A DNA stretch of 64,000 bases from Harmothoe impar. Lineage: Eukaryota; Annelida; Polychaeta; Phyllodocida; Polynoidae. Under the pieces are notes generated by a model. The model did no database searches. It was not told the origin of the DNA and saw only the letters and a list, made by a program, of their open reading frames with translations. The DNA lies in NCBI GenBank assembly GCA_947462335.1, contig OX381721.1:5704001-5768000 (forward strand), in the 5' to 3' direction. The translations under genes were made by a program, and so were the position numbers. Shown piece by piece: positions 14,331 through 61,542 of the stretch (the stretch's first letter is position 1; every line of letters starts with the position of its first letter).

Positions 14331-14440
14331 CTCGGTAAAAGGGCCAATAGATTCGATCACCATCACCGCCCTTGAAATGACCATAGCTGTTAACTAAGGC
14401 GTAAAGCAACCCACACACCCACACACCCACACACCCACAC
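14331..14440. repeat. Short repeat shared with 10,157-10,300, then (CCACACA)n
   Basis: CTCGGTAAAA, ATAGATTCGATCAC and CCCTTGAAATGAC.. recur in the same order at about 10,158-10,270. A short CCACACA array follows at 14,410-14,440. The two copies flank most of the interior of the 10-kb element. Confidence 0.55.
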
Positions 14441-15186: not shown

Positions 15187-15898
15187 ATTAGTTTACAAAT
15201 AGCCCGTGTAAGTACGCCCATGTCTTGCTTATTTCTTATAGGGTTGTAAGATAGTCACATCATGATGCACATCATCATAAACGCAATCATGATACCTTTC
15301 ATTGTAAGTAGACTCGCCTCTCTGCCCTCTAAAAGAGAGGGCAGAGAAGCGAGTCTCACTCTTAAAAAACCCTTCCCCTCCCCCCCTCCCCCCCTCCCCC
15401 CCCATGCATCTTAAAGAGTGCCCCCCAGAGTGCCCCTCCCCCCCCTCCCTCCTAGAAAAAAAGAGCCGCATTTTTAAATAATTTATAGCAAGCTTTCAGC
15501 TTGCTTTTTTTCTTTTTTAAAATTTATTTATCCATAAAAATCTCAAGTGACTTATTTTGAAATTCGCGCCAACCTAGTAGTCACGTGACCCCCTTAAGTA
15601 GGTCACTGCCAGTCACGTGACCTATTTGAATTTCCCGCCAACATGGTGGTCACGTGACCCTCTTAAGTAGGTCACTTCCGGTCACGTGACCTATTTGAAT
15701 TTCCCGCCCAAAGGTCACGTGACCGGAAGTAGGTCACTTCCGGTCACGTGACCTATTTGAATTTCCCGCCAAAAGGGAGGCCTCTCATTGGCTGCTTTTG
15801 AATTTCCCGCCAAAAGGGAGGCCTCTGATTGGCTGCAGGTCGATTGAGTAATAAACAGTACTTAACTATAGTCCCGTTCCGATACATACTATACTACT
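15187..15898 (-). repeat. Right terminal inverted repeat
   Basis: This is the reverse complement of the left TIR, about 712 bp. It carries the same CCAAT, E2F-like, E-box and ETS-like sites in mirror order, the same G/C-rich tract and the same internal hairpin. Differences are a handful of substitutions, for example in the spacer near 15,608 and in the A/T run near 15,480-15,530. It ends in CTATACTACT directly before TACACC. Confidence 0.85.
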
Positions 15899-26768: not shown

Positions 26769-29700
26769 CTATAATTTGAGAAAAACATTTAGCATCGACA
26801 CAAGTATGGATGAGCTCATTATGGTTCCCAGACAATTGTGTTCGGTACAATCTTAAAGTATAGTTTATAATGACCACACTTGTCCCATATCCAACATAAA
26901 AGCTTGAGCCACTATTATAATTGAATTTGGGAATATATTTTGCCATAGTCTAGAGCAAACAAAAAAGTGAAACAATAGAAATACTCAGGGTGGGGACCAT
27001 CTTGAGGTCAGAATGATTCATGCAGCTACACTATACCCTATTTACAAACTATTTTGTGAATCATAGGTCAAAATGGCCTCAACATCTTATTCCTAGATCT
27101 TGCTTGTATTTGAATGGAGAACTGATACTTAGGACTGGACACATTGGGCGGAGGTGACTGCCCATTCATCCGATAAAAGCACAGCACCACAAAAATGGCC
27201 TAGATTATCTCCCTGAAGGGAAAGCATCCAGGGCCAGGAGTTGGGCTGAGCTTCACCCCCACCACTAATGTAGGGCAGATCATCATTTCCAGTAACGCGC
27301 TTGCCACAGACTTTAGGGACATCAAAATATTTTCTTTCATGTACACTTTGGACTGCCTCATTTATGAATGCTCAAATATAATTATGTTAAAGTTCACCAT
27401 CCTATTGAACTCCCATTGACAAGTTTGAGTAATATTTGACCAGGTTTGAGGCACATGCCAGTAAGTGGAATTTGCTTTCGGTATTTATATAATACAACAG
27501 TTACATTTCTTTCAAAAAAGGAAGGCCATATGTTCCCACCTTACTATGTCATCAAAAATAGTGGTTTGTTTGAAAGGTGCAGACAAGGCTAGTTTATACT
27601 CCTCCTAATCACAATTTTAGCAATTTGAAAAAAAAAGATTTTAAATGAAAGCAAATGAACACTTATTCTAGTCTGTCAGCTTGGTTATTTCACATTTTGA
27701 CCGTGCGGCCACATTTCGCTTGGCCTAAAGTCTTGTAAACTACTGGCTGATGTCAACATGTGAAACAAGTCTGTCAACAGGTTGAAACTATGGTTTTTTT
27801 TCTCCAACAATACCATAGCCCATGTCTGATACAGACGTATATATGTGATACATAACAATGCAAGTATACAGAACAATGAGGTCCCACCTGGCTCAGGAGT
27901 AGGCTTGCAGCACCTGAGTGTTGGGTTCCCGCAGGTATCCTGCTGACCGTCCAGCTCTCCATGCTGACACGTCTCAGCACACACACCTCCCACCTCAGCA
28001 CACGTAGACCCTGGTAAACAAACAATCAGGTTTTAACAAAAGGAGGGGGATCGGTGACTCCCCTCCCCATTGATTTGTCCTTTTATACAAAGAAACTTGC
28101 AGGAATTTGTAACAAGAAAAATATAAAATGACAAAATATACAACAAGAAAAATATACAACAAAATATTTATAGATTTTCGCCTACTATCAAGAAAGCCCC
28201 CAAAGAGAATATCTCAAACTTTGAGAACACTACATAGTCTGCACCGTAAATGTGATGATTATTTCTACATATATGACCTGCACTCTTTGGTGTCAAATTG
28301 CAGCTAACTGTTATCTATGTGTGACTTCACTGTATGTATGATGCATACTAGAAAATCATTAAGGTACTTGCTTTCCCATGATATGTTGAAGCCGCGGGCA
28401 TTATTCGCAGCATCGGTTGTGAAGTGGAGGTAGACCCTCTTACCACTAGTGACAATGGGCTGGATTGCCTTTATACCACACAGGTTTGCAACCACAGGGG
28501 CATAGCCATTCTCTCCATCATGTACCTGAATGACATGCAATACCAACCATGTAGGCAATATATCACAAAACTATGGTCTCATCATGCACTAGACTTGTCA
28601 AATGTTCTCTGTTTGAACTAATATTTAATTCAGGTTATCCTACTCTATTAGTGTACACTATTCTTCATATTATACGAGAGTTGTTGCAACCAAAGGTCCA
28701 AAAAAGGTAGGACAGTTCAAGAAGATGCAGCTGAACTAGCCTTTGCATTAGTACATAAAAAGATAGTTAAAGATAACTTTGATTTAGTAATGTCACAGAT
28801 CATGGAATACAGCTGGTAACGCCATTGTGGCTTAATGGATTTATTCATCTCTATTGCTTTTTAGAATACCTACTTTGAGAGAGTCTGCCTTGCAGTTCTC
28901 AGAACTCTCTACTTCAAAGTCAAGGAACTTGAGGGTGATAGAGCCTGTGCTGTTGGCCTCCAACTCAATAAAGAAGGCACAGTCAGCATTGTCGGGGTAG
29001 TTCTCTGGATACTTAGGGCTAGTGAAGAAGCCTGAGTCTCCAACTAGCTCAGAGCCACAGTTCAGATTTGGGGGATACCTAAAGAGAATGTAGTTATATA
29101 AAATAATGAGACTGTATAATATAGTAGATACATGCTCTGTGCTAAGTATTGTATAAACCAAAAACTAGATATTGCAAAGCTGCCTGCTCTGGGGGACACT
29201 CATGTCTGACTGCTTTTTTTTATGCCGAAGTCAGGTTCCTGAGGTTGATAATAATCATACCTACCCCCGCTAATATGGACCCAAGGAATTCAATGGTTCT
29301 ATCGGTTTGTTGCTAAAACAGCTGGTTGCCTAGCAACGGCTATTCTAATTGTTTATCTGCCTAGCAACACACATTTCCATGGTCCTGAGGTTGATTATAA
29401 TCATACCTACCCCCCCTAATATGGACCCAAGGAATTCAATGGTTCTATCGGTTTGTTGCTAATACAGCTGGTTGCCTAGCAACAGCTATTCTAATTGTTT
29501 ATCTGCCTAGCAACACACATTACCATGGTCCTGAGGTTGATTATAATCATACCTACCCCCCCTAATATGGACCCAAGGAATTCAATGGTTCTATCGGTTT
29601 GTTGCTAATACAGCTGGTTGCCTAGCAACGGCTATTCTAATTGTTTATCTGCCTAGCAACACACATTTCTATGGTCCTGAGGTTGATTATAATCATACCT

Positions 29701-32700
29701 ACCCCCCCTAATATGGACCCAAGGAATTCAATGGTTCTATCGGTTTGTTGCTAATACAGCTGGTTGCCTAGCAATGGCTATTCTAATTGTTTATCTGCCT
29801 AGCAACACTCATTTCCATGGTCCTAAGGTTGATTATAATTATACATACCCCCCTTAAATGGACCCAAGGAATTCAATGGTTCTATCGGTTTGTTGCTAAT
29901 ACAGCTGGTTGCCTAGCAACATCTATTCTAATTGTTTATCTGCCTAGCAACACACATTTCCTTACCCCCTTACATGGACCCAGGGAATTCATAGGAACTG
30001 CCATATTTGAAGTAATATCATCCTTCCCCCTGATTACCCCTTCCGGGCTTTGCTTATTTGGTGTCTCGAATGGGTTCCTTTCGAACATACCAACCATGTA
30101 GACATTATGTTTCTTGGAATGCAAGAATTGCGGTTGTTGCCGCGTAAAAAAATGCCTGAGGCATTTTTTTACGCGGCAACAACCGCAATTCTTGTTTAGC
30201 CATGAAAGAAGAACAGTTTGAGAGTAATGTGAACAATCCGAAAGTCTTCAATACCAGGCTCCATCAAAGATGATGTTAGTTCTGAAATATGTCCACGTAT
30301 GGTTGTTGAGTCAATGGCTGCAACTGGAAACTGCCATTGGTATTGTACAACAAAATGTTCATTTATTGACAGCAGTTTCCTTCAATGTTCAATCTATGTA
30401 GGCTCATTGAGGCAACTATAGTATTATTTTTCTACACCATTGATATTTAAAAATGCTTTATATTACTACATGTATTATTCACTATACTAATATACTAATA
30501 CTCACCTGGTGGTCGGTACAGGTGTGGTGGTAATTGCAGGAATCTCCCTGTATGAGGCCTTGAACCCTCGGTAGTTAAGAGATTCATCCGAGCGGAATGT
30601 CACTTCAAGAATATTGGTTTTGCTTATTATCCGAGGAGGAGCCACACTACCACAGTATCTATTGCAAAGGAAAAAACATCTCTGGATCATGATCATAATG
30701 TCTTTTTGGTATTGGTGGTACTATGCATTGGTACAGGGAACATTCATTTTAAGGTCATAGAAGAATTGTCATTGAATATTTTGTAAAAACCCACAGCATT
30801 GATGATGCATTGATTATTAACTAAATTTATTCTACCAATATGTACTATTGAAAGAAATCTACTAGAACATAATCATTTTATCTTTTTTTGCAAGAAGTAC
30901 AAGCATTATACACACATCAATACATCATAGGTAGGACATTGACCATGACATATTTGAACCTTTGATTTTGACAAATACTATAGTTGTAAATTTCATTTGT
31001 CAAATTTATTTGACCAGGAAGAACAGAGCATTTTCATATCTAATGATGTTCAACTCTGTGAACTCATAAAACAGCTTTATTTTACTCCATGACAGGCTAT
31101 ACTGCAAAGGGACCTGTTGTGCTGAGCACTTGTACTTACTCGAGGATACATTGCGGACTGGTGATGGCCCATCCGTCTGACAGAAGTACAGCACCACAGT
31201 AGTTCTGTTTGCCCCTAAGAAGGCTCAGCTGCCAGGGCCAGGAGTTAGCCTCAGCCTCACGACCACCACTAATGTAGGGCAGCTCTTTATTACTGGTGAA
31301 TCGCCTGCCACAGCCTGTATTTACAAAGAAATTGTTTCATTCATGTCCACTTTAGAGAGATTAATATAACAGCACTATTTCAAGGATTAACAAGAGTGGA
31401 ATACTACAACTGTCCATCTTAGGCATGAATAGACCAATTGTACAAAGTAAACCTGTAGCCATATTGAGCTGCCAGAAGGCAATAAACATTTCCAATTCAA
31501 AGCTTTACATATCTTAAGCGAGTATTTTACTCCCATTGACAAGTTTAAGATATCTTGGAGCAGTAATTTTTACTTTCTCAGTTTGAGTGCGCCATAAATT
31601 CATTAACTCTTTCTTTCTATGAACAAAATTTGATTTGAAATGAAAATAATGATTCTGAAGAAAACATAGTTTCCAAAGAACCATATGTGTAATGATAAAG
31701 TAATTTATACTGTATAAACCTTCAAATTTGAGCAAAAAGTAAATTTAATTAAAAGCCTACTTTCAATGGCATCTTCTATCTTAAGGAAAAAGGGTGGTTG
31801 GGGTTGCTTCAATAAGGGGGACGAAGGCTGTTTATCAAAAATGTTTTTGCTTAAAGTTGCTTGAATTAGATAGTTCATGTGTCATACCTGGTCCCGGAGT
31901 AGGCTTGCAGCAGCTGAGTGTAGGCTTGCTGCAGGTACCTACACGGTCCAGCTCTCCATGCTGACACGTCTCAGCACACACACCTCCCACCTCAGCACAT
32001 GTAGACCCTGGTAAAGGAACAACCATGTTTTAGCAACAAGAGGGGGATTGTAAGATATTGTGTGCATAATCAATATGTTTATGGGTCAAAAAGTAATTTG
32101 TACAAGCAGTTTCATCCATAGTATCATAATAATTGTCTCATTGAACATGATTTTTACACCACATCAAGTACATATTTTATCTTGCTTCAATACCCTTCTT
32201 TTTGTAGAAATGTGCAGTATAAATCAAGTGAGAATTAACAGTAAGTATAATGCCTCAGAGAAATTCACTAATATACTTGCTTTCCCATGATATGTTAAAG
32301 CCTCGGGCATTATTTGCAACATCGGAAGTGAAGCGAATGTAGACTGCCTTGCCACTAGTAAAGATAGGTTGGATTGCATCTTTACCACACAGGTTTGCAA
32401 CCATTGGGGCATAGCCATTCTTTCCATCGTGTACCTGAATAACATGTTACAGTAATGTAGATCTAAACATCAAGATTTCATCATGTTCTAATGTTTTTTT
32501 GGTTATATGTGTCGAATGTTATAATATTTTATTGTAGCTGTTACGTCAATCTAGCTAAGTTGGACATTGGTCATATAACACAAGGCTCTAAGCAAGATGT
32601 CGCAACCAGGGTCCATTGGGTGTAGGACAGTCTTCCGACTGGACCTGTGCATTAAGAACGTGTTTATCATGAAATACAGCTTCAACAGGACAGCATTGTA

Positions 32701-46808: not shown

Positions 46809-49800
46809 ATGCCAACAAGATCGAGAACCCGAAAACCCAAGCGCCGGAATGCGGCCAAAAACATGGCTGCTTTCATGGATTATGACTTCGCCTGGTCTGC
46901 ACCTGGATTACAGGACACTAGGCAGAAAGCCACCCCGAAAAGGCCCAGGGCGGAGGGAGGGATATCAACCCTCCTAAATGCCACCCCGAATGAAGTCTCA
47001 CCAATCCACAAAAAGAACAGGTTTGACATTTTGAATTCTACAGCACTGGTTGCTAAGGAAGCCATTCCCGGTGTTGACATTAACTACCCACCGTCAACAT
47101 CGACGGCCGGCACCCACCCCCTGATAGCACTCTCAGGTAACCAATCCACAGCTGGGATTGACCTACCTCGTGAGGCCCAAGCTGTGAACAACAACCTCCC
47201 ACCTCCGGGCTCTCTACTCAACCCCTACCCACCGCCGGACATGGGGACAAACCTGACTGGCTACCTGCTTGGTAATGAGACGGCCCATGATTACCACCTG
47301 GTGGCATCAGACCCTGTAACTGAATTTATTGATGAACTCAATCACTCAATCAATGTCAGTTCACACAGCTACCTCCTGCCGTGCCCCGTAGCTGAAGGGG
47401 TCAACCTGACACCGCCTGACAGCCCCGCCAGAGGGGAAAAACCGCCGACTCAGCGCGCCGCCTTTGACGGCCACGCCCACACACGCGCCGACACACGTGG
47501 GCCCGTCACAACAACAACAATGCCACGTGCCCGAGAGCACGGCTCCCGCCCGGACCTACCACCGCCGCCGCTACCGCCGCCGCCGCACACCGCGACACGT
47601 ACAACTGCAGCTACACACATACCAGGAGGGGAGATTGGCCAGCTACCACCGGGTTCCCTACACACCCAGCGGCTACATCAGGCTGATCCCAATCACCCCC
47701 ACAACCTGGTCCCGATGAACACCCGACTTCTGTCAGCGGTTGAATACATCAAATTCAACATGGTTGAAAAAACCCAGCTGAAAGATGAAATGACCTCCCT
47801 CACAGCTAGTTTTGACCAAAAGGTAACCACCCTCTCAACTGAGCTGAGTGCCCAGCTTAATGGCATCAGCAGCAGGGTGACAACCTGTGAGTCTACGCTA
47901 AACAAACAGCTGATAAATGTCCCCATTGCCATCAAACTAGCTGAGGACAAGTGCATTCAACATTCAGATGCTGCCTCCGCTGCACTATCTGCTAAACATG
48001 CTGACCTAGAGAGGCGCTTCAATGCCCATCTGACAGACTTTAATGCTGTCCAAACAAAGGTCAGCCAACAGGAGGTGGCTTCCTCACGTGCCAGCATCCA
48101 CACAGCCACCCTGTCTAACAAAGGATATGCAGCCTCAGTAAGCCAGGGAGTAGCACAGCCTGCTGCCCCCCATCCACCCATCCCTGCCGCCCCCCCGGCC
48201 CAGCCCCCGAAGGGAACGCGCCGCAGGGGCAAAACCACTTACAATGTAGTGGTAGTAGGCCTACCTGCGGAAGATGGTGAAGACATCTTTGGCACCTGGA
48301 GCAAAATCAAGAATGCACTGGGAATTATTGTCAATAACACTGACATATCATCCATTGCCCGCATAGGGAGATCTGGGAAGAAGCTCCCACCCCCCATCAT
48401 GATCTCCTTCACCAACCCGGACACACAATCACTTGTGCTAAGCATCAGGGACAGAGTGCGGAGTCTAGGCTCCCGAGTGTACTTAAACCCTGATGAGCCA
48501 CGTGAAACGCGTGTCAATCGTTATCTGCTGAGATCCATTTTCAACCACATCCGTGACTGGGATGTGGGGGCTAGCCTAACCGATGAAGGGCTGACCATTA
48601 ATGGACTGCTGTACCCACCCACAGAAACAGCTATAGACTCAATAGATGACGTGTTCAAACCAACTGACTTAAACAGTAGCAAAAAGTCAAAGAAGGGTAA
48701 GCAACCCGTCAAGCCAGCAGCAACTGGCGTAACCACCCCCCCTCCCCCCCCAACACATCCCATGCCAGCCAATCCCCAGAGGGTACAACAGACACACCCC
48801 CGTGCACCACCAGCGGCCACCACCTCACGCCGCACCATGGGCGCTCCCATAGCCCACCCCCATATACACCCACCCACCACGTGTACTGTTGACCCGCCCC
48901 CCCTCCCCCCCATCAACCCCCCGACCCAAACTCGCCAACCTGTAACACTCTCGCACATGATGCATGGTCAAGCTAAGCCTAGACACGCTCAGCCCAGCCC
49001 CCACCTGTCCAACCACCAACCACCACTCCGAGCGCCACCTGCCCCGCAAAACAAACCTGCACCTCCTGGCACCATCAAACCCCTAATGGGGCTCCATGTT
49101 GACACCCCCGCGCCACACAGAGGCAGGGGGCCTACCCCACTCTCCCCAATACAGCACTCTGCCATTACCATTGATTCTACCCTAGACGGGCAGAAACCAA
49201 TACCAATCATCACATCCACCCCAACCCACGGCGCTGCCCCCACCCACCCACCCAGGCCCACAACAACCAGTGACCTCCGCCTGCCACCCTCCTCATATAT
49301 CTCATCCCATAAGTCCAAAAAGGAGAGAATTGTAACAGTGAGCAGGGGAATTGCATTCAGCGGGGAAACTGCCTACCTCAGTAACTTTTTCCCTGCCCCC
49401 TTTGAATTTGAGGTCAAGGGAGTCATGGAAACCTATGAGAGTGTTGAGCAAGGGTATCAACATGCCAAAGCGCTCCACTGTCATGACTACAGAGCAGCCA
49501 TAGACATTAAGCAAGAACCCCGCGCCCCACTCAATAAATCAAGGGGGCGTGGCATTGACACTACCGGGACTGATTGGGCCCGCCATGCAGTACCCACAAT
49601 AAAGAAACTCGCCACTGCAAAGTATGTGCAGCACCCTCCCCTGAGACACCTGCTGTTTCTCACTGGTAACACCCCGCTGTTAGAAGCCAGTCGAGATGAA
49701 TTCTGGGCCATAAACGTCTCCTTTGACAGCCTACTTCGTAACCCCACAGGCTGTGAATTCAGTGGAAAAAATGTCATGGGACACATCCTAATGGACATTA

Positions 49801-49931
49801 GGTACGAGCTATCCATCATCTATGAGTACCAAGCACCCCACCCAGGTGCCCAACCACTGCCCACCTCCAGCATGACTGGGCCCCCGCCTGTGGCCCCAGT
49901 CAAGAGGCACCATCAGCCTAAATGGCCCTAG
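46809..49931 (+). CDS. LINE ORF1: coiled coil, RRM-like ORF1p core, C-terminal NADAR domain
   Basis: 1,040 codons. The N terminus is basic (TRSRTRKPKRRN). Pro-rich linkers follow, then a heptad-like coiled coil at about residues 311-430. An ORF1p RRM-like core starts at about residue 477 (YNVVVVGLP, ISSIARIG, PIMISF), with the usual following helical domain (ETRVNRYLLRSIF) to about 620. This type of core binds RNA and forms LINE RNPs. After a long Pro/His-rich stretch, residues about 845-1005 match the NADAR/YbiA family: YLSNFFPAPFEF (856-867), SVEQGYQHAKA (878-888), LRHLLFLTGN, EASRDEFWA (959-967) and GKNVMGHILMDIR. NADAR proteins are known ADP-ribosyl N-glycosidases acting on guanine or on riboflavin intermediates. 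I infer that the LINE protein may remove ADP-ribose from nucleic acid. I know of no classic LINE with this fusion. Confidence 0.87.
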   Translation: MPTRSRTRKPKRRNAAKNMAAFMDYDFAWSAPGLQDTRQKATPKRPRAEGGISTLLNATPNEVSPIHKKNRFDILNSTALVAKEAIPGVDINYPPSTSTAGTHPLIALSGNQSTAGIDLPREAQAVNNNLPPPGSLLNPYPPPDMGTNLTGYLLGNETAHDYHLVASDPVTEFIDELNHSINVSSHSYLLPCPVAEGVNLTPPDSPARGEKPPTQRAAFDGHAHTRADTRGPVTTTTMPRAREHGSRPDLPPPPLPPPPHTATRTTAATHIPGGEIGQLPPGSLHTQRLHQADPNHPHNLVPMNTRLLSAVEYIKFNMVEKTQLKDEMTSLTASFDQKVTTLSTELSAQLNGISSRVTTCESTLNKQLINVPIAIKLAEDKCIQHSDAASAALSAKHADLERRFNAHLTDFNAVQTKVSQQEVASSRASIHTATLSNKGYAASVSQGVAQPAAPHPPIPAAPPAQPPKGTRRRGKTTYNVVVVGLPAEDGEDIFGTWSKIKNALGIIVNNTDISSIARIGRSGKKLPPPIMISFTNPDTQSLVLSIRDRVRSLGSRVYLNPDEPRETRVNRYLLRSIFNHIRDWDVGASLTDEGLTINGLLYPPTETAIDSIDDVFKPTDLNSSKKSKKGKQPVKPAATGVTTPPPPPTHPMPANPQRVQQTHPRAPPAATTSRRTMGAPIAHPHIHPPTTCTVDPPPLPPINPPTQTRQPVTLSHMMHGQAKPRHAQPSPHLSNHQPPLRAPPAPQNKPAPPGTIKPLMGLHVDTPAPHRGRGPTPLSPIQHSAITIDSTLDGQKPIPIITSTPTHGAAPTHPPRPTTTSDLRLPPSSYISSHKSKKERIVTVSRGIAFSGETAYLSNFFPAPFEFEVKGVMETYESVEQGYQHAKALHCHDYRAAIDIKQEPRAPLNKSRGRGIDTTGTDWARHAVPTIKKLATAKYVQHPPLRHLLFLTGNTPLLEASRDEFWAINVSFDSLLRNPTGCEFSGKNVMGHILMDIRYELSIIYEYQAPHPGAQPLPTSSMTGPPPVAPVKRHHQPKWP
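49330..49830 (+). other. NADAR (YbiA-like) domain-coding part of ORF1
   Basis: It encodes residues about 841-1007 of ORF1. Motif order follows the family: N-terminal strand and LSNF-P-PF, the SVE.xYQ..KA helix, a DW..A...MKKL.AKY-like helix (here DWARHAVPTIKKLATAKY), L...LL.TG, L.EAS.DxFW and a G.N..G..LM..R C-terminal helix. All the blocks I expect for the family are present and in order, so the domain looks complete rather than a remnant. A 30-residue insert (EPRAPLNKSRG region) is longer than the bacterial loop. Confidence 0.83.
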
Positions 49932-50092: not shown

Positions 50093-50734
50093 ATGGTCAT
50101 CCTTGTAATAGGGGATTCTAGGGTAAGGGATCTCGGTGGCTACCTGAGTCCTGTACCTCGCTACATAACCCATGCGATGGGTGGAGCCCCTCTCGCCAGA
50201 GTTAGTAATAACATCTGCCAGCGACTGCTACATAATGAACACTTCGATGCCATATACATAGCAGCAGGCATTTGTAATCTACTAGCCTATGACAACTATG
50301 GGAAATCATGTATGTGCCACATAAAGGACCCTGACAGCTTCAAACTGGATTACCTAATTCAAATGCAGGAACTGGTCTACAAATGCCAAGAAATCAGTGC
50401 AAACATTCCTATAGTGTTTGTGCCCATCTATGGAGTGAACTTATCGCACCTGAACGGCAAACCCACCTCCTGGGTACACCCGCAGCAAGATAGGTTCAAT
50501 GCTATGATCCATAAATTGAATGCAGCCATTTATGGTATCAACAAAACTGGTCGCCTGAATACCCCGAAAGTGGACAAAATTGTCCATGAGTGGCATTCCC
50601 GGGTGCACCTATATGAACAGCACTTCGACTTCCTCTACGATGGCCTGCACCCCAACCCTGATCTAGTTGAACTTGTCTCATCAGAGATCATGTCGGCTGT
50701 AAATAAGAACAGACTGCAATATTTGCATCAGTAA
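50093..50734 (+). CDS. LINE ORF2: stand-alone SGNH/GDSL hydrolase (esterase-like)
   Basis: 213 codons, starting 162 bp after ORF1. Block I is G7-D8-S9 in VIGDSRVRD with the nucleophile Ser. A block II-like Gly is in MGGAPL (30-31). Block III has G59 and N62 in AAGICNL. Block V is D183-G-L-H186 in YDGLHPN. All four catalytic-site residues of the SGNH family are therefore present. Esterase domains of this type are known in ORF1 of CR1-type LINEs, where they are proposed to act on lipids or membranes. Here it is a free protein, not fused to the RNA-binding ORF1. The start codon context is CAAAATGG. It has no signal peptide or membrane segment. Confidence 0.83.
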   Translation: MVILVIGDSRVRDLGGYLSPVPRYITHAMGGAPLARVSNNICQRLLHNEHFDAIYIAAGICNLLAYDNYGKSCMCHIKDPDSFKLDYLIQMQELVYKCQEISANIPIVFVPIYGVNLSHLNGKPTSWVHPQQDRFNAMIHKLNAAIYGINKTGRLNTPKVDKIVHEWHSRVHLYEQHFDFLYDGLHPNPDLVELVSSEIMSAVNKNRLQYLHQ

Positions 50735-53466
50735 TTATGAGTGCCTGTCATGTATCATTTAAACCAAACTGCTGTCTGCCTGTATAATTCCCCTTAATCT
50801 CTAAAAAATATGGTACAATATATTATATCTTAGGTCACTAGCTCAATATCCCACTATCTCACTTAACTTAAATCGTGCTTACCAACATAGCCGTGTTCAT
50901 GTTTATTTTTATAATCATAATCAAAAATCACAAATCAGTACTCAACCAATCAATTATCCCATAGACGGGACAAACGGGTTCCCTTAAAAATATGCCAGGA
51001 AACTACTAAACACCAATCAATAGTAATGTATAGACAACTGTATGCATACTCGCATAATGACACCATTTCTGGACTGGGGACTCTCTGTCCTTGAGTGTCC
51101 ATGTGTTTGTGGACTGAGGGTGATGGTACTGATGGGTATGGTGTCTGGTAATGCACCCTACATCTTGTTTGATGCGGGCATAAATTGGTCACCAACTGAT
51201 ATCCACTGGCCGTCGGCCCTCAATCCCCTAAACACAAATTCTATTGTGTGTAAACCTGTAAGCTATACACTTAGTACTTTATTGTATATTGAATATTGAT
51301 TGCTGTATATTTGGCCTATGACTGGGTTTTGGTACCGGCTGCATACTGACATACCCTACGTCATGTCTGATGCGGTCCTCAGTCTGCGGCCAATTACCAC
51401 TCCAGCCAGCCAAATAATTAGTTGTTTAAGTTAAGCATACTGAAACATATTGAAGTATATCTGTGTCACGACTAACATGGTGGACACCGATGGTGATATT
51501 CATATTAAGGCTGTACGTGATTGAGCGGCGGCCGGTGGTCACTGATCGCCAGTCCCTGGCCACTGGTCACTGGTCAATGACTTAAGCCCACTGTCTAATG
51601 GTTTCATTAATATTTTCATGATTTTATTGCCCGCCATTTATCACTTCTGTCGTTGGTGCGGGGGGGGGGGTGTGACACCTAGTGTTTGTGCTGGTGCGGT
51701 CCCGCCCTGCACCTACTAGATACACACTGAATAACACACACCATACTATAGAAATGCAGATGAAAGCATGGGCCTTAACGCATGCCACGAGCCAATATAT
51801 ATGTGTGTCAATGACGGTACCCTACATCTTGTTTGATGCGGACTGTACTGACACCTATATGACGCCTATATGACTTGCATAACCCATGTGACTCACTTGA
51901 TGATATCGCGACTGCGAGCGCCCCCGGGTGCAGCCCTGAGGAATGTTACATAGGTTGTACCATACATCTTGTCTGATGCGGACAACACTAGTACCAGCAT
52001 TCTCATGGCACTGAAGCAGCACTCATACGACGCTCATCTAGTATACATCTGTAACTGTCGGCTTCAGCTCATTGAGCTTAACAGAGGGAGTCAGGGACTA
52101 GATGGCCTAATGTCCATGGTGGTCACTGCCGACCCTCTGCTCTCTACCGTATAATGCACACATACTAACCACTGTAGCTATGTAGCATCCTAATACCAGT
52201 GTGCTATGACACGGCTAAGGCCTTGATAGTCTAGTACTAGGAAAATTAATTCCACTGTGACCATTGCTACATCGCAACTAATGATGTCTCGTTATCAGTA
52301 TTATCATTGTTACTATTGTTATTCTCTCACACTCCCTGTGCTGTTACCAGGGCTGTGTTCTTTCCCAGTATCATTATTATTACTAGACCAACATGTAGCA
52401 TTGTAACACTAGTGTGCTATGACACGGCTAAGGCCATGATAGTCTAGTACTAGGAATACTAATTCCACTGTGACCCATGCTACATGCTACATCACAACCA
52501 GTGATGTCTCAATATTATCACTGTTACCATTGTTATTCTTACTCACTCCCTGTGTTATTACCAGGACTGTCTCTCCCAATATTATTATCGTTATTAGACC
52601 AGCATCTAAGACCAGGTATCTTGTCTGATGCGGCCACTCACGATGCTGGGCTCAAATGGCTACAAATCCCTCCCAACTCGCCGCCCACTACTTTCCAAAC
52701 CACTTAGTTATCTAAAATTACGATTACTGGACCAGCATCCTTGACTGAACATCTTGTTTGATGCGGCCAATTATGATGCTGTGCTATGCTGATCACTAAC
52801 CACCCCCATCCCTCCCCATTACTAACATCCTCCCCTACTACGCCCGCCATACATCTGGCACTGTCAGCCCTACCCACCACCGTCCTATACCCCACCCCAC
52901 CAACCAACCAACCTACACCCCCCCCCCCACCAACCCACCCCCCCCCCCGCCCTCCCTTCCACACCCACTACCCCCCGCCTCTCCCCCCCCAACCCCCAAC
53001 GGCCCCCCCCCCCCCCCCGGCATCCCCCCCCCTCCCCTTCCCCCAGCGTCGTCCGCTTACCATCGAAACTTTAATATGAAGATCTCAGCGACCGAAGCTT
53101 AGCAATTAATTATTCAGTATTAATTATTAATTATCTCTTTTAGTTAATCTAATCTATGGATCACGATAATTATACCTCGAGTTAGTTTGGGGAGACAGCT
53201 CTCCTACCAGTCAAGCAGTCACGCACCTACAGTTACAAAGACATATAACAAACCCCAACGGCCTTTCTCAAGGCCACTCTTCTCGACCGCGACGTACCCT
53301 ACGCATATAGGAGACTGGTGCTCGTGACACCGCCCCCTCTCTCTGTCCTACACGTATGTGCAGCCCCTGTGCCGCCACTCTCGCTGTTTATATCACTGTC
53401 CCTCAGCACACATATACCCCCGCTCTGGTCACTTCCTATATAGCAAGGTGAAATCATACCTTAAAA
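50735..53466 (+). other. 2.7-kb inter-ORF region with repeated motif and C-rich tract
   Basis: There is no long frame. CATCTTGT[T/C]TGATGCGG occurs at 51,161, 51,825, 51,965, about 52,617 and 52,750, with a weaker copy at 51,361 (TCATGTCTGATGCGG). Four copies are preceded by TACC.TAC or CCCTAC. A second repeat, GCTATGACACGGCTAAGGCC with TGATAGTCTAGTACTAGGAA, occurs at about 52,200 and 52,412. From 52,800 to 53,050 the strand is C-rich. A TATATAG at about 53,437 lies 30 bp before the ORF3 ATG. This may be a separate promoter or untranslated leader for ORF3, or a join between two elements. Confidence 0.7.
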
Positions 53467-56385
53467 ATGACCACCACATATGAGGACTTTGTCCTACTAA
53501 AAGGCCTAAAAATAGGCCACTATAATATACGTAGTCAAAATCTTAAGTTTGGAGAATTATCCAAACTTGTGAAACTATTTGATGTACTTGCGATTAGTGA
53601 AAGTTGGTTAGTTGAAGGCTTCCCGGATAATAAACTACACATAGCTGGTTACCAATTCTTCCGCTATGACAGGGTAGTGAATAAAACCGGTGGAGGCCTC
53701 CTTATCTACATATGTAATAGTATGGCTCCCTTCTGTAGCTTACTCACTCCCCTGAAGCGTTCCAATGAGGACATAGAATCTATTGTTGTAAATTTTACTA
53801 AAGATAAGCACCGTCTCACCACCTTCATCCATGTGTATCGCCCACCTAGTGGGAGCTACATCAAGTGCATTGAGTCCATCAAAGAAATCTGTCAGGACCC
53901 AATACTGGAGGGGCGAGAACGCTGGCTAATAGGTGACATCAACATAGACCTTTTCCAGCCCAATGATCCTAAAACAAAATCATACACCAAGGCCATGAAC
54001 GACTTAAATCTACATGATCAGATCTACCATGTAACCCGTCCCCACCCTAATGGCAACGGAGGAACATGTATAGATCTCATATCGACTGATTGCGATATTG
54101 TCATGTATAATGGTACGCTCCCACTGTTTGTGAGTGACCATGTCCCCACCTATGCCATAAAAAAGAAGCCAAAAGAGGTCTATACCATGGTAAAGATGAG
54201 GGGCCGCTCTTATAGAAATTATAGTCAAGCGGATTTCATGGATCACCTGCTACACGTTGACTTATCAACTTTCTATGCAAGTAATGATGTTGATGTTAGG
54301 TGGTCCATATTACAGTCACACATAACTGAATACCTAGACACCCATTGTCCCATCAAGGACATGTCCTTTAAGGACCGGAACAAACCCTGGATGACTAGGG
54401 ACATATTTGAGTTAATTCATGAACGGGACCAGTACATCCTGGAATACATTAGAGACGGGGAGCATAACCCTGATCTCCTAGAATGTGCACAGCAGGTCCG
54501 TAGGGACATTAACCTTAAAACGCGCATATCTGAAGAAAATTACTTCAATAAAAAACTAACCGACTTGGCTTCCCATCCTACTAAATTCTGGCGTGAATTA
54601 AACCTCCTACTTGGCAAAACCGGTGATAACAAGCCGGATATTGTATTAGATCACCATAAGCATGGTCAGGAGGTCAAGGGCAGCGATGTACCAGGGTACA
54701 TTAATGCTTTCTTCTCGGGAATAGGGGAAAAGCTCTTTGACACTCTAGGGGACGCCCCTAAGGTCTCTGAATGTAATAAGCCCTCCAGTAAGACTCACAC
54801 CTTCAGTGAGGATGCTGTAACTAATGTCTCTTATGAAAGTGTACTAAAGCTTGTGAAATCTATTGAAGTCCACAAATCCAGTGGCATAGACAATATACAA
54901 ACCTCGGTGATGAAGGATGCCCTATTGGTGCTTGCACCAGAATTACTATCCATCATCACACTCAGCCTACAAACCGTTGCATTCCCACAGAAATGGGCAT
55001 CTGCAAAAGTAGTACCGCTGCCTAAATCCGGTGACTTGAGGCATATAGGGAACTGGCGCCCTATCTCACTCCTACCGGTCCCCAGCAAAATTATGGAGCG
55101 TATTGTATATGAAAAAATCTACACTAACTTAGAAAACAGTAAAAAATTGCATAGTTCACAGTATGGCTTCCGCGCGTCCAGGGGAACAAATGATGCTGTG
55201 TTCAAGTTTGTCAATCGGGTCTACCAATCCAAAGACAGAGATGAAACCCTGATGGCCTGTTTCCTGGACGTGCGGAAGGCTTTTGATAGCATCCACCATT
55301 TTGAATTAATTAGCCGCATGAAATATCTAGATCTACCCCCAATGCTCACTGACTGGTTATTCGCATACTTAGGCAATAGAACCCAACGAGTTGTCTGTAA
55401 TGGCTCCTCATCTACCCTACTACCTGTAAAATTCGGCGTCCCCCAGGGGTCCATCTTGGGCCCCCTCCTATTTATTTGTTTTGTAAATGCCCTACCTGAT
55501 GTCCTAGAATATTGCGAAATTATCATGTATGCAGACGATGTCGTCTTCTTTATAAGCGCCCAAAACGCTGAAGCTGCGGAGAGAAAGCTGCAAATTGACG
55601 CCACAAATGCATATAACTGGTTTAGCAAAAGTGGTCTCTGCATCAACACTGAAAAAACCAAGGTCGAAGTGTTTAATGTGAAAAGAAATGATGGTTACAA
55701 ACCCAACATTAGAATGGGAAACACATTGTTGAGTGTCTGTAATAAGTATGAATACCTTGGCATCATAATAGATAATAACCTGTCCATGGAGTATACCATT
55801 AGTAAAAATGTAAGCTCAGCTGCAAACAGATGTAAAATGTTAGGTCAAATGCGAAGGAGAATGTCCACAGCTACTGCAATACTTGTATATAAGCAGACCA
55901 TCCTACCAGTACTTGAATATTGTGGTTATCTTCACAACGGTATTATTCAGTCACAGCACAAGCGGCTGCAGCTGATGCAAAACCGCTGTTTACGCGTCAG
56001 TCTGCGACTGCAAATGCGCTACCATGTACTTAATTTACACACAGACACCAAAATAGATTACCTAAGTGTTCGTTTTGATCTGCAGCTGCTGTTACTATTA
56101 TATAAATACCTGAATGGTACTAACCAGTCCCCTGCAGAGCTAGGTCTTGCATACTCTAATCCCCCCGCGTGTGGAAGAGTCACCAGATCCACAAACACTG
56201 GTCTCTTGCAATACCCCCCCAGTAACACGTTAACCTACAGGAGAAGTCCCTTATACAGGGGCATAGACCTCTGGAATAACCTAAATGTCTCATGTCGCCT
56301 AGCCGCGAATAAATCCCTCTTCAGGTCAAAGGCCCTAACCCATATTCGAGCCCTACACCTTGCCAAATTACGCTTACAGAGATAG
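53467..56385 (+). CDS. LINE ORF3: EEP (APE-like) endonuclease and reverse transcriptase
   Basis: 972 codons. The endonuclease covers about residues 14-235: N20 in HYNIR, E45 in SESWL, YRPPSG, GDIN (156-159) and SDH (223-225). The RT covers about residues 500-760: PKSGD and NWRPISLLPV, YGFRASRGT, FLDVRKAFDS (599-608), GVPQGSILGPLLF and YADD (688-691). A C-terminal helical region ends in YRRSPLYRGIDLWNNL, typical of CR1/L2/Jockey-group LINEs. All metal-binding and catalytic residues are intact. It makes the target nick and primes cDNA synthesis from the element RNA. There is no RNase H domain. The start follows ACCTTAAAAATG, with no long upstream frame in phase. Confidence 0.94.
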   Translation: MTTTYEDFVLLKGLKIGHYNIRSQNLKFGELSKLVKLFDVLAISESWLVEGFPDNKLHIAGYQFFRYDRVVNKTGGGLLIYICNSMAPFCSLLTPLKRSNEDIESIVVNFTKDKHRLTTFIHVYRPPSGSYIKCIESIKEICQDPILEGRERWLIGDINIDLFQPNDPKTKSYTKAMNDLNLHDQIYHVTRPHPNGNGGTCIDLISTDCDIVMYNGTLPLFVSDHVPTYAIKKKPKEVYTMVKMRGRSYRNYSQADFMDHLLHVDLSTFYASNDVDVRWSILQSHITEYLDTHCPIKDMSFKDRNKPWMTRDIFELIHERDQYILEYIRDGEHNPDLLECAQQVRRDINLKTRISEENYFNKKLTDLASHPTKFWRELNLLLGKTGDNKPDIVLDHHKHGQEVKGSDVPGYINAFFSGIGEKLFDTLGDAPKVSECNKPSSKTHTFSEDAVTNVSYESVLKLVKSIEVHKSSGIDNIQTSVMKDALLVLAPELLSIITLSLQTVAFPQKWASAKVVPLPKSGDLRHIGNWRPISLLPVPSKIMERIVYEKIYTNLENSKKLHSSQYGFRASRGTNDAVFKFVNRVYQSKDRDETLMACFLDVRKAFDSIHHFELISRMKYLDLPPMLTDWLFAYLGNRTQRVVCNGSSSTLLPVKFGVPQGSILGPLLFICFVNALPDVLEYCEIIMYADDVVFFISAQNAEAAERKLQIDATNAYNWFSKSGLCINTEKTKVEVFNVKRNDGYKPNIRMGNTLLSVCNKYEYLGIIIDNNLSMEYTISKNVSSAANRCKMLGQMRRRMSTATAILVYKQTILPVLEYCGYLHNGIIQSQHKRLQLMQNRCLRVSLRLQMRYHVLNLHTDTKIDYLSVRFDLQLLLLLYKYLNGTNQSPAELGLAYSNPPACGRVTRSTNTGLLQYPPSNTLTYRRSPLYRGIDLWNNLNVSCRLAANKSLFRSKALTHIRALHLAKLRLQR

Positions 56386-56711
56386 CAAGACTAGCTGGTC
56401 CCATACCTGCCTGCTGTTAAACAAAGAATCACAAATATTATTATATATATCGGCATTGTTCATCCAGTTTAATTGCCTTCCCATATGCATAAATCATGTA
56501 TTAATGTATGTACTTTGGTTGTATTAATTAGAAATGTATTAGTTTATTGTGATTACAGGGGAAATCATGACGCTGCCCTCCTATATCTATATAGGACGTT
56601 GATTGTGTGGCATGGCAGTACCTAGTATCTCTATATCTATTACTCATAATAACCAAGGAGAGGAAATATTCCTCATTTTGAATGTATCGTATTTTTGAAA
56701 ATCACCAAGTG

Positions 56712-56745
56712 AATAAATACGTTATAAACTCAAAAAAAAAAAAAA
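56712..56745 (+). terminator. LINE polyadenylation signal and A-tail
   Basis: AATAAA (56,712-56,717) is followed 14 bp later by 14 A residues at 56,732-56,745. This marks the 3' end of the three-ORF LINE, about 345 bp after the ORF3 stop. Confidence 0.8.
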
Positions 56746-57660: not shown

Positions 57661-58657
57661 CTGCTGATGATGAAACTTTACATCATGTTTAACATTACCG
57701 GTAGTTAGTAATATTTACTTGGCACAATTAGTGAACCCCGATCTTGGTTAGAATTGATACACAAATGGACGCAAACACTTACTGCTTTAGAAGCATGAGA
57801 CTAGTGTGTGCCTTGTTGCCAGCTGAGCCTTACTGGTACAAATATTGAGTGCATAGAGTGTTATCATATAGACATATGTTTATTTCTGCATAATATGTTA
57901 TTATTACTACGTATTCCTTTCCAAGTTATCATGAAAGGCATTAGTCGTCTGAATGACCATAAGAACCTACACAAACATAAATGATCGCCTCATGAACAGT
58001 GTCTGGTTATAGGTACATGAATGAGTAAAATTGTACACTCTAGATTCCTCTGCCTTGGGATTCATGGACATTTGACTCTTTACGATTACTACCCTGTGAC
58101 ACATGTGCTGGAGTATAGAAGGAGTAAACAGCAGTGTTATATATATACTGCAGTATTACAATGGACAAAATCATCATTACTACAATCTGTCGACAATTAA
58201 AAACTGTTAACACTAGATATATTATTATTATTGGTTACATGCCACTCTTCTTTAATTGGGATCCTACTATGTAGCCTATTAGCTTATCAGACATAAAACC
58301 ACTACTTTCCAGGTGCGAGCTTAGCTCTATCAACAGTAATCACATATTCATAACGACGCTTGTGTATTGTCTATGACATAACCAACTTATTCTCACTTCA
58401 AAGGGTTTTCAATTCAGTGGCCAGTTACCGGCTGTCCACATATTGTAAACTCTATCATCTAAGTTGTTACAAACTTGTCGCAACCTAGATACACTCCAAT
58501 GGTCTTCAACGTCTGTCTTACTTAAGTTATTATTACACACTCTATCCTATTGTATGTTATTATATTGTCTTTTGTTTCTTTTGTATTGTTTTTTTCTTGT
58601 CACTTGAATTTTGTGTCAACCCTCATTCACATTGCCTGCCCTCACTGCTAGGTCAAC
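57661..58657. other. Non-coding stretch upstream of the decayed LINE
   Basis: No ORF1-like frame is visible. It may hold the 5' untranslated end of the decayed LINE or older insert sequence. The start of that element could not be found. Confidence 0.4.
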
Positions 58658-61542
58658 ATGTCATTCACTATTAAAGAAGTAGTGGAAGAAAAAGGTCTCA
58701 AAATGATGCACTTGAATTCAAGAAGCTTCTATAGGAAGAGACACCAATTCTACAGACTGTTTACTGAATTTGACGTTGTGACCATCAGTGAGAGCTGGTT
58801 ACATGAGGGTTATAACGAATGTCTCCTCCAGTGGCCTGGGAAAACATTGTTCAGAATGGACCGTCCGGCATCTGTTGGCAAAAAGACTGGGGGGGGGGGG
58901 CCTGGTGTGTTATGTGTCTGATCAACTAGCAAGCCACTGCGTCACAGTCCCTTCTCTCAGTATTGTGACCCCTGATGTTGAAAGCTTAATATTAAGCCTC
59001 AAGATTGCTGATTGCAAGCCAATTATGATTGCGAGTGTTTATCTCCCACCTAGTGGGAATGTGACGAGATTCCTGGAATACTTGGAATCAACCCAGCTGA
59101 GCCTGTTGGTGGCTGGACATGAAAAGTGGTTCCTGGGAGATCTTAACATCAATACCCTGAACACTGGTGCTGCCCCTTGTCGCAACCTAGTGGACAAATG
59201 TCGAGACTTGGGTCTGAAAATTCTGATCAATAGCTGCACTAGGCCCTGGGGTAGAAAGGTCACATGTATTGACCATATACTAACTGACTCTAACTGCATT
59301 CTGAGGTCTGGTGTGATGGCGGTGCTACTATCTGACCACTTGTCGGTGTTTGCTGTAAGGCAAAAAACGGCACTGGCGGAGTGTACAGCCCAAATGTGGG
59401 CGCAACTACAAACAGTACAGTACAGAGGGTCTGTCAGATTGGATGCAACAAGCTGATTGGGATTCCTACTGGGAGTTAGATTCACCTGACCACCAGTGGG
59501 ATTTCATTCATGAACACATTGACCTGTATTTGGATTACAACTGTCCTCTACAGGTCATGAAGGTTCAATCAAAATCCAAAGATTAGATGACCCCTGAGAT
59601 ACTGGAGTATATGTCAGAGCGCGAGCACAGACTTAGAAAGTATCAAAGAACACATGATGATGGTGAATTGAAGATGATCAGGGCACTGAGGAATAGAATT
59701 AATCACCTGTGTAGATACACCAAGGCTGCCACTGTCAAGCACAAACTGGCAGCCTGTGAGAGCGACCCAAAGAAATTCTGGAGGGAGATCAATTCTATGT
59801 TCAAGGGGGTGGATACTGCCATAGCTCCAACATTGGTAGATGCTGACTCAGGTGACACAATCCCTCCAACGGAGTCACCAGACTACATCAATAAATATTT
59901 CTCAAATATTGGGCGAGTGCTTAATGAGGAATTTGTTGACAACCCCCTGACAGACTCATATACCAGGCCTGACGATAGTTATGTCCCGAAGGTAGATCCG
60001 ATCAGTGTCAATCCAATAGTGGTGGACATACTGCTAAGGGAGGTCTCTGTCTCCAAGACCTCAGGCCTTGCTAATGTGAGACCTGATGTCTTGAAACATG
60101 CCTTGCTATGCATTGTGCCACAGTTCACTGCTCTGTTGCAGAATTCATTTGATAGTGGTGTCTTCCCATCTGTGTGGAAAGATGCCAGGGTCACCCTGAT
60201 ACCCAAAGCTGGCAGGAAGGACAATGTGAGCAACTAGAGACCAATCTCCTTGCTGAGCATGCCTTCTAAGATCGCTGAGAGGCTGATGCACATGCATCTG
60301 AACAATGCCATTGAAGAGGCTGGTGACCTCAGTGAGTCTCAGTTTGGGTATCCCAGTGGCAAAGGCACGGTGGACGCAGTCTACAAACTAGTCAATGACA
60401 TAGGTTTGGCTAAGGACAATGGTATGTACACTGGTGTGGCCTACCTTGACCTGCGCAAGGCCTTCAACTGCGTCCACCATGGCCTTCTAATGAACAAGCT
60501 GAAGACCTTGGGGCTCTCCACGAATATCTTGGCTTGGATTCATGACTACCTGACGGGCAGAACTCAGCGAACATGCTTTGGTAACAACTCCTCCACAACT
60601 GAACAGGTGACAACAGGGGTGCCTCAAGGCAGTGTCTTGGGCCCTCTGCTGTTTGTCTACTTCCTCGATGCCCTGACCAAAAACTGTGATGACTGTAGTG
60701 TCATCCTCTATGCAGATGATGTTGCACTGTACACTTCCCATAAGAAGCCCAAAGTGGTGGCAGAGAGACTGCAGCGCTCCCTTTCTGTGGTTTCAAAATG
60801 GTTCCAAAAGTCTAAACTGACGCTGAACGCTGAGAAAAGCAAGTGTGTGCTGCATTCCACATGTAGTCAGGGGCCAACTGTCGAGTCGATCAAGGTTGAT
60901 GTAGACGGTGTGGCTCTGGGCTGTGTTGACTGCTACACATATCTTGGTGTGCCTCTGGACAGGAGACTGACCTTTGAGAAGGCCATTAAAGAACTGATCA
61001 AGAAGGTCAATGGTCGCCTGTTCAGCCTGGCTAAGCTCCGTGACATGGTCACCAGAGAGACGGCATTGCTGATCTATAAGACCAGCGTGTCCACTCTGTT
61101 TGACTATGCGTCATTCTTCTATGCTGCTGCAAATGAAGGACTATTGTTGAAGCTTCAGAGACTACAGAACAGGGGGTTGCGCACCTGTCTGAATACCTCT
61201 GCGCATGTGTACAGTGTTGATGAGCTGCATGCACTGGGCAAGATGCAGTTCCTATCACGGCGCCGTAATGAGATCATGTTGACCCTGATGTACAAACTGT
61301 ACCGCAGGTCTGATGCTGCGGGTGCCGACACCCCACGGGTGGGTGCTCGCGGCACCAGATCTGACGACAAAAAGCTGTTCCCTCTGAGGAGACCGGTGAC
61401 TGAATCATACAGGAGGTCACCTGTCTACAGGGGCAACTTGCTGTGGAATGTTCAGCCAGAATGGTTGAAGGACAGTGTCACTAAGCCACAGTTCAAGAGA
61501 AACCTGAAGAAAGTGGTAAATCTGAGAGAAAAGCATCCATGA
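58658..61542 (+). pseudogene. Decayed LINE EEP-reverse transcriptase ORF
   Basis: Parts of one ORF lie in three frames. Part 1 is 58,658 to about 58,890 (LKMMHLNSRSF, SESWL). Part 2 runs from about 58,890 to 59,430 (LVCYVSDQL, YLPPSG, GDLNINTL). Part 3 is about 59,430-61,542 (FLDRRK-like YLDLRKAFNCVHH, GVPQGSVLGPLLF, YADDVALY, YRRSPVYRGNLLW). The first shift is in a 12-G run at 58,889-58,900; the second is near 59,430. Two in-frame TAG stops lie at 59,584 and 60,235, where the family has Trp (K.WMT and NWRPISLL). The RT catalytic YADD is intact. It is diverged from the LINE at 46.7-56.7 kb, so it is a different family, and it has no ORF1 beside it. Confidence 0.9.

Follow-up and report, generated by a model that had tools for sequence, protein, structure and literature searches.

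We find that the 64,000-nucleotide stretch of the Harmothoe impar genome analysed here (the window) contains an autonomous LINE of a recently active family, in which an L1-type RNA-packaging ORF1p carries a C-terminal NADAR domain. Selection keeps this domain intact in related elements of the genome, and it therefore probably helps the element to copy itself, perhaps against host modification. The element is composed as follows.

46809–49931, + strand: ORF1, 1,040 aa, with a proline-rich N terminus, coiled coil, RRM+CTD core, proline-rich linker and NADAR domain
47706–48098, + strand: probable coiled coil, about residues 300–430 of ORF1 (heptad count)
48159–48728, + strand: RRM+CTD core of the L1 ORF1p type, residues 451–640 as modelled (AlphaFold and Foldseek)
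48729–49328, + strand: proline-rich linker, fast evolving (pN/pS of the stretch preceding NADAR)
49365–49811, + strand: NADAR domain, residues 853–1001 (Pfam, profile and fold)
50093–50734, + strand: ORF2, 213 aa, SGNH-like (GDSL) hydrolase (GDS and DGLH motifs)
50735–53466, + strand: spacer belonging to the element, with no long frame (covered by the near-identical copy L033)
53467–56385, + strand: ORF3, 972 aa, APE-type endonuclease and reverse transcriptase (Pfam)
56667–56745, + strand: 3′ terminal sequence common to other families, then an A run that marks the element end

The ORF1 frame occupies exactly 46809–49931 as 1,040 stop-free codons, as the initial annotation of this region had proposed. 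The coiled coil comes from a crude heptad count without a control, and the ORF1 piece comprising residues 301–450 matches relatives. At the sequence level the core (residues 451–640) has no Pfam or PDB match. When its AlphaFold model (pLDDT 88, pTM 0.68) was searched with Foldseek, the top eight PDB matches were all human LINE-1 ORF1p (including 2ykq, 2ldy, 2ykp, 2yko and 2w7a), seven of them at E ≤ 0.001 and with probability 0.99–1.00, at modest TM-scores by query of 0.29–0.49 (all below 0.5). Because the core model is nearest to human L1 ORF1p, the RRM-type core claimed earlier holds, and the predicted fold corresponds to a type II LINE ORF1 with the RRM and CTD of L1 ORF1p.

ORF2 gives a weak Pfam match to Lipase_GDSL_2 (E 0.0083, below the cut-off) and no SGNH chain among its PDB sequence matches; both the GDS and the DGLH motif are present in all six ORF2s of the window clade. 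ORF3 matches RVT_1 over residues 519–768 (E 1.1e-35) and Exo_endo_phos at E 2.6e-4 (21.3 bits, under the Pfam cut-off of 24.5). As judged from these matches, the element is a non-LTR retrotransposon with reverse transcriptase and APE endonuclease in one ORF. The spacer between ORF2 and ORF3, which holds a direct repeat, degenerate and about 220 bp long (52180–52608), is part of the element because L033 is 99.7% identical over 50425–56744. The 3′ terminal sequence recurs at 88–93% identity across 66–82 columns in L030, L031 and L032 and at 77% over 173 columns in L029, and unrelated flanks lie beyond the A run. Dispersed copies (L033, L034 and L035) share the 3′ end and an A-tail and show variable 5′ truncation, with 5′ ends seen in L033 and L034 and that of L035 lying outside the stretch fetched. 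Copies up to 99% identical occur in the genome, which indicates recent activity of the family.

Tx1 elements belong to the L1 group. Against human L1 ORF2p, ORF3 scores 65 bits over residues 457–771 only (the RT), whereas a control element from the same genome, L023, scores 344 bits over residues 6–1170, nearly the whole protein. This rules out L1/Tx1 membership of the window element. With L1 excluded, and since an L1-type ORF1 core and an SGNH-like ORF are known in CR1/L2 elements (PMC4120745), the element is best described as CR1/L2-like and of a non-L1 branch, a label given on ORF types and L1 exclusion. Type II ORF1s consist of coiled coil, RRM and CTD, and esterase-type ORF1s are known in CR1 and L2, where that survey found them only in vertebrate subgroups (PMC4120745). 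The window element shares with the type II LINEs of the CR1/L2/Jockey superfamily the APE endonuclease–RT ORF and the L1-type ORF1 core; it differs in having an SGNH-like ORF2 beside its type II ORF1. The main text of PMC4120745 makes no mention of NADAR or YbiA.

A complete NADAR domain had been claimed at residues 845–1005. Pfam NADAR (PF08719) matches residues 853–1001 over profile positions 9–162 of 163, scoring 77.9 bits where the cut-off is 35.1 (E 1.4e-21), so that the absence of a profile hit, which the initial annotation would have taken as refutation, did not occur. Searched as a single sequence, the domain matches PDB chains only weakly (8bau, E 0.0011; YbiA, 2b3w, E 0.0026). A profile of 25 LINE NADARs retrieves the same two chains at E 5.8e-27 and E 2.7e-22, and no other PDB chain at E ≤ 0.01. 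The AlphaFold model of the domain (pLDDT 93.5) is nearest to 8bau in Foldseek (E 1.1e-10, TM 0.73) and then to YbiA (2b3w), both with probability 1.00; 8bau is a Phytophthora NADAR with ADP-ribose. The Pfam score and the fold match rule out a chance or low-complexity match.

Window residues E880, K887, W923, E959 and W966 correspond to Phytophthora NADAR E43, K50, W89, E125 and W133, as read by eye off the pairwise alignment with 8bau with a numbering offset of 2 allowed; the roles of the Phytophthora residues are those given in the available extract of PMC11543638. E880, W923 and E959 are present in 26/26 distinct LINE NADARs, K887 in 25/26 (with R in the remaining one) and W966 in 25/26, at a median identity among the domains of 29%. 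These counts derive from 29 rows at 27 places, from which three identical rows were dropped; the presumed cellular NADARs L001, L002 and L004 were excluded, and L003, which the locus-orienting tblastn did not recover, lies outside the analysis. The catalytic Glu, the Lys and the last-strand Glu of the YbiA subfamily are all present in the window domain. Counterparts of the ligand contacts R79 and R93 are not conserved in LINE NADARs (that of R79 is by alignment the variable R914, the residue count having used R912), and the D130 contact is kept in only 15 of the 26.

The domain is not unique to this copy. A genome search returned 3,484 first-look NADAR candidates, and the 150 best-scoring of these, which were the ones scored, all exceeded the cut-off. 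In 17 of 20 ten-kb loci, hand-picked from the 150 mostly for long frames, EN-RT lies downstream in the same orientation; L005 and L020 represent a single genomic place, as do L007 and L028. By coordinates alone the same arrangement was found at 14 of 19 NADAR places (ranks 5–23 of the 150), a test that drew on 32 of 47 RT rows of one search and 47 of 47 of another, 44 of 66 ORF1 rows (one per locus) and 25 of 152 ORF1-core matches. All 44 scored loci of the ORF1 search match both core and NADAR as we read the rows, in a ranking that favours full-length matches. The ORF1-core search also gave several places at 62–70% identity outside the ORF1 locus list, and some relatives may have lost NADAR. 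Copies lacking NADAR had been named as evidence against the proposal; the relatives that were read carry the domain, subject to the same ranking.

NADAR identities track RT identities across 21 loci (Spearman 0.80; 0 of 2,000 permutations as high), which together with the EN-RT loci supports, for this genome, a linkage of NADAR to an RT clade. Because dS is near saturation in most pairs, pN/pS is given beside dN/dS. NADAR pN/pS is 0.13–0.26 (eight pairs), compared with 0.19–0.26 for EN-RT (four pairs) and 0.34–0.68 for what precedes NADAR, at most 190 aa (eight pairs), and is lower than in that preceding stretch in 8/8 pairs. The ORF1 core, placed approximately in this comparison, gives 0.14–0.29 in six of seven pairs and 0.49 in L016–L018. 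On these sequence comparisons the NADAR domain is as constrained as EN-RT and under purifying selection.

The leading mechanism is a predicted removal of ADP-ribose from nucleic acid. ORF1p would coat element RNA and thereby place NADAR at that RNA, at newly made cDNA and at the nicked target, where the domain would hydrolyse ADP-ribose off nucleic acid, most likely at the N2-guanine linkage, so that host or DNA-break-triggered ADP-ribosylation would no longer block reverse transcription or translation. This linkage is the one that characterised NADARs cleave. The available extracts of PMC11543638 and PMC11125620 report guanine de-ADP-ribosylation as a conserved activity of the NADARs assayed, both eukaryotic and bacterial; the former extract also names guanine-modifying ADP-ribosyltransferases in animals, the pierisins and clam CARP-1. 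The anti-defence action on ADP-ribosylated RNA or cDNA put forward in the initial annotation is plausible given this known chemistry (PMC11543638). The catalytic residues, low pN/pS, EN-RT linkage, RT co-divergence and 8bau fold match support such an eraser, and the unconserved R79 and R93 counterparts and poorly kept D130 weaken it. Also counting against it, Ala at the E43 counterpart of the E. coli C7 NADAR has only a minor effect in vitro, although it loses cell rescue and Gln is not tolerated there (PMC11543638, extract); no Scabin/pierisin-like transferase was found in this genome, in a search that gave no control match; and we found no direct evidence of ADP-ribosylated LINE nucleic acid in any animal. 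Some active NADARs do not protect cells from DarT1 (PMC11125620, extract), and the substrate of a NADAR therefore cannot be read from its sequence. The explanation as a whole, an autonomous CR1/L2-like LINE whose ORF1p–NADAR acts as a putative counter-defence or template-cleaning enzyme, has in our estimate a little less than an even chance of being right.

The domain could instead serve the element's life cycle rather than counter-defence, by stripping ADP-ribose-derived groups from element RNA ends or caps, or from small by-products. The extract of PMC12477816 proposes RNA-intermediate processing for Ectocarpus and oyster elements, PMC9503650 ties NADAR to RNA repair, and the nematode NADAR protein SNA-3 is required for SL1 trans-splicing, which changes at its YbiA catalytic equivalents impair, with a folding effect allowed for by the authors (PMC9303266). 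Fusion to an RNA-packaging ORF1p would fit this role, whereas the activities described in the extracts of PMC11543638 and PMC11125620 are base de-ADP-ribosylation and riboflavin-intermediate hydrolysis. We consider this alternative unlikely, with a real chance nonetheless. A NADAR that binds host-PARP ADP-ribose at DNA breaks, and so steers the LINE particle to its target, would account for the match to ADP-ribose-bound 8bau and for the retained pocket tryptophans (26/26 and 25/26); mere binding has no obvious need of the invariant catalytic E959 and two ligand contacts are not conserved, which makes a reader improbable. A riboflavin-intermediate N-glycosidase or other metabolic role is very improbable. 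On the NCBIfam model for that enzyme (TIGR02464, cut-off 73.7 bits) the NADAR of L1-like L023 scores 108 bits, but the window domain reaches only 69.4, compared with 166 and 148 for two NADARs of this genome that are presumed cellular, and the activity has no evident use to a retrotransposon. That NADAR is a one-off capture, a host fragment drifting as a neutral passenger, can be dismissed given its copy number (3,484 candidates, 150/150 scored passing), conserved residues, low pN/pS and RT co-divergence.

In a tree of 41 NADAR domains the LINE rows need five changes, at least two of them by well supported branches, and L1-like L023 groups weakly (81/88) with presumed cellular copies; long branches also meet. 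This tree neither shows nor excludes that all LINE NADARs go back to one origin. A protein homologue search with ORF1 residues 840–1010 gave 286 candidates, none at E ≤ 0.001, and a profile search gave 11 proteins of 147–301 aa at E ≤ 1e-5 among 2,224 candidates. One of the 11, P0002, appears by eye to comprise an ORF1 CTD end and NADAR. Pattern scans of viral and prokaryote contigs returned 54 and 84 matches and no relative.

The initial annotation was aware of no LINE family described with such a fusion, a statement that is not supported in that form: the available extract of PMC12477816 already notes a YbiA-family NADAR in the ORF1 protein of several Pacific oyster Tx1 elements (Crassostrea gigas, Repbase), in a short passage without selection or linkage analysis. 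The domain type and its position in ORF1 are the same; the window element differs in that its ORF3 matches L1 ORF2p only over the RT (65 bits) and in its SGNH-like ORF2. The same extract describes Ectocarpus Gypsy elements that also conserve a NADAR, there at the Pol N terminus of an LTR retrotransposon of a brown alga. Positive-strand RNA viruses of invertebrates likewise carry a parasite-borne polyprotein NADAR, proposed to undo host ADP-ribosylation, in a virus rather than a retroelement; the main text of PMC9503650 leaves retrotransposons, retroelements and transposons unmentioned. What is apparently new is a CR1/L2-like, non-L1 radiation of NADAR-bearing LINEs that shows evidence of selection and shares its genome with an L1-like NADAR family.

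In diverse LINEs, some of them recently active, the packaging protein thus retains under selection an active site predicted to remove ADP-ribose. This makes it directly testable whether ADP-ribosylation touches the retrotransposition cycle. LINE NADARs also point to a possible function of NADARs in animals, where the extract of PMC11125620 calls their physiological role unclear, and some listed invertebrate NADAR proteins may be LINE ORF1s. A further reading, possible if doubtful, would make NADAR an ancient core component of a whole radiation of animal LINEs, maintained by selection and acquired more than once (by CR1/L2-like and by L1-like lineages), the reason being a still undescribed defence in which animal hosts place ADP-ribose on guanines of retroelement RNA or cDNA, with the LINE enzymes as its eraser. 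If this is true, LINE NADARs would reveal that host guanine ADP-ribosylation defence.

The ORF1 frame at 46809–49931 is open throughout its 1,040 codons, and NADAR is its sole Pfam domain above cut-off (residues 853–1001, E 1.4e-21). The predicted fold of residues 830–1012 (pLDDT 93.5) has as its best PDB match the Phytophthora NADAR–ADP-ribose structure 8bau (E 1.1e-10, TM 0.73), followed by E. coli YbiA, with the third match already at E 1.4. Sequence searches with the ORF1 core gave no match; the top eight PDB matches of the core model (pLDDT 88, pTM 0.68) are all human LINE-1 ORF1p, at modest query TM-scores of 0.29–0.49. The open frame, the Pfam match and the fold matches of both parts confirm the initial annotation's description of a LINE ORF1 with a complete NADAR domain.

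Two further frames belong to the element:

50093–50734, plus strand: ORF2, with GDS and DGLH motifs, SGNH hydrolase type
53467–56385, plus strand: ORF3, endonuclease and RT (EN-RT)

The SGNH hydrolase motifs GDS and DGLH are kept in all six ORF2s of the window clade, to which the element belongs; among seven weakly similar frames at distant loci, the GDS pattern occurs in one and a DxxH pattern in two. The Pfam match of ORF2 is weak and below cut-off, and an SGNH chain is absent among its PDB matches by sequence. Close copies of the element lie at three other places, L033 (99.7% identical, starting at 50425), L034 (99.6%, starting at 51841) and L035 (98% over 52934–56739 and 92% over 51516–52701, its 5′ end falling outside the stretch compared). 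All end at 56737–56744 in an A run, beyond which the flanks are unrelated. This pattern marks them as recent, 5′-truncated LINE insertions and shows the 2.7-kb spacer to be part of the element. The three matches stop short of ORF1, of which the genome search found no near-identical copy (next best match 73% identical); ORF1 and ORF3 are taken as one element because relatives show the same order. The 3′ end is common to more distant families.

Another LINE elsewhere in the window (58652–61542) falls in the same broad RT group and has its EN-RT scattered across several frames. The largest plus-strand frame between it and ORF3 is 93 codons, so there is no apparent ORF1 there. A 17-bp unit is repeated 21.7 times with 94% matches (25312–25680) within a 160-codon minus-strand frame at 25217–25699, and a satellite-like 146-bp unit five times with 96% matches at 29237–29961. 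A 10.1-kb unit at 5821–15898 is bounded by inverted repeats of about 700 bp, 98–100% identical and built partly from 69-bp tandem units:

5821–6248 and 15471–15898: inverted-repeat arms
6236–6533 and 15187–15484: inverted-repeat arms

No stop-to-stop frame listed for it exceeds 109 codons, and it resembles a large non-autonomous mobile element.

Searched with Pfam in full, the 1.51-Gb genome yielded 3,484 first-look NADAR candidates. A one-off capture is ruled out by the 150 of these that were scored, all of which pass the cut-off, by the whole-ORF1 search, in which core and NADAR were both matched in 44 of 44 scored loci (by reading rows, in a ranking that favours full matches), and by recurring linkage to EN-RT. 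Same-strand EN-RT lies downstream of NADAR in 17 of 20 loci inspected over 10 kb (the exceptions being L017, L021 and L022), and by coordinates alone a related RT lies within 3 kb downstream in 14 of 19 NADAR matches (ranks 5–23 of the genome-wide Pfam list). By coordinate comparison, ORF1 or its core is found 2.3–7.6 kb upstream in 21 of 47 ORF3 copies; many of the remainder may be 5′-truncated. Both coordinate comparisons draw on subsets of the listed RT, ORF1 and core matches. A second family, inspected at four places (L005/L020, L006, L007/L028 and L008), has a short ORF1 of 427–471 aa with NADAR at its end (in L008 this ORF1 is split). Its NADAR-including copies are 94–99% identical over 2.5–5.2 kb.

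The genome's four best NADAR matches, L001–L004 (G000 C19:3.415 Mb and C21:30.058–30.084 Mb), are probable NADAR genes of the host itself, and three of the four lie in a cluster; against a riboflavin N-glycosidase model, L001 reaches 166 bits and L002 148 bits. At L021 (4180–8275) and L022 (4164–8221), a NADAR ORF1 precedes two adjacent frames weakly similar to window ORF2 by blastp. Pfam gave no SGNH match for these frames in L021, and no RT was found in the 10 kb inspected at either locus, a possible different element arrangement. Contigs C9, C16 and C17 have no listed NADAR, ORF1, core or RT place and other 65–124-Mb contigs have many, a comparison that takes no account of the sizes of these three.

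Window ORF3, provisionally placed as CR1/L2-like, matches human L1 ORF2p only over residues 457–771 (65 bits), whereas L023 of the same genome aligns with it over residues 6–1170 (344 bits). The ORF1 of L023 is a separate frame that also has NADAR at its end (99.3 bits); its coiled-coil matches are weak and fall short of the Pfam cut-offs. At least two deep LINE lineages of H. impar thus carry NADAR, and L024, on a long branch, may be a third. LINE copies are not all united in the NADAR tree, in which deep forks are weak.

RT and NADAR identities are correlated across the 21 loci with both domains (Spearman 0.80, reached by 0 of 2,000 permutations), and, judged by eye, the RT and NADAR trees of the window clade are largely congruent. 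Seven window-clade loci (L009, L010, L011, L014, L015, L017 and L027) retain NADAR with no visible ORF2, and three SGNH ORF2 queries gave no match there. NADAR pN/pS is 0.13–0.26 (8 pairs), similar to EN-RT (0.19–0.26, 4 pairs), and the stretch before NADAR is higher in 8 of 8 pairs (0.34–0.68). Where dS can be measured, NADAR dN/dS is 0.061 for window–L029, 0.086 for L009–L011 and 0.12–0.15 among young copies. These low values argue against a one-off capture under no selection, the outcome that the initial annotation had set against its own reading.

The 26 distinct LINE NADARs, at a median identity of 29%, all keep E880, W923, E959, G986 and N988; at position 887, 25 have Lys and one has Arg, and 25 keep W966. 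E880, K887 and E959 correspond to Phytophthora E43, K50 and E125, reported to coordinate the distal ribose or pyrophosphate (PMC11543638). In the E. coli C7 NADAR, the K50 and E125 counterparts are required for activity, with Lys to Arg tolerated in vitro; changing the E43 counterpart to Gln inactivates, and to Ala has a minor effect in vitro and abolishes rescue (PMC11543638). However, counterparts of Phytophthora R79 and R93 are not conserved in LINE NADARs and that of D130 is kept in only 15 of 26, which counts against an eraser function.

DNA nicking triggers PARPs. As it nicks DNA, a LINE exposes RNA and single-stranded cDNA, and an eraser tethered to ORF1p could serve counter-defence or template cleaning. 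The LINE NADAR fits such a tethered eraser, for which we infer both substrate and benefit. In the assays of PMC11543638 and PMC11125620, the NADARs examined take ADP-ribose off guanine, and animal guanine-ADP-ribosylating enzymes, pierisins and CARP-1, exist (PMC11543638). A search of the H. impar genome, run with no working control, did not find a Scabin-like transferase.

The initial annotation knew of no described LINE family with this fusion. Such a fusion has already been published: NADAR is present in ORF1 of several oyster Tx1 LINEs from Repbase and in Ectocarpus Gypsy Pol, with a suggested role in RNA processing (PMC12477816). Among the papers listed by our literature searches, this was the only one placing NADAR in retroelements; the searches found neither a CR1/L2-like NADAR LINE nor selection evidence for a LINE NADAR, and the main text of a Jockey-superfamily ORF1 survey mentions neither NADAR nor YbiA (PMC4120745). 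The NADAR enzyme domain is genuine and under selection in a radiation of LINEs in animals, some members of which were recently active; one earlier paper touched on this kind of element, and the clade, scale and selection evidence presented here extend it.
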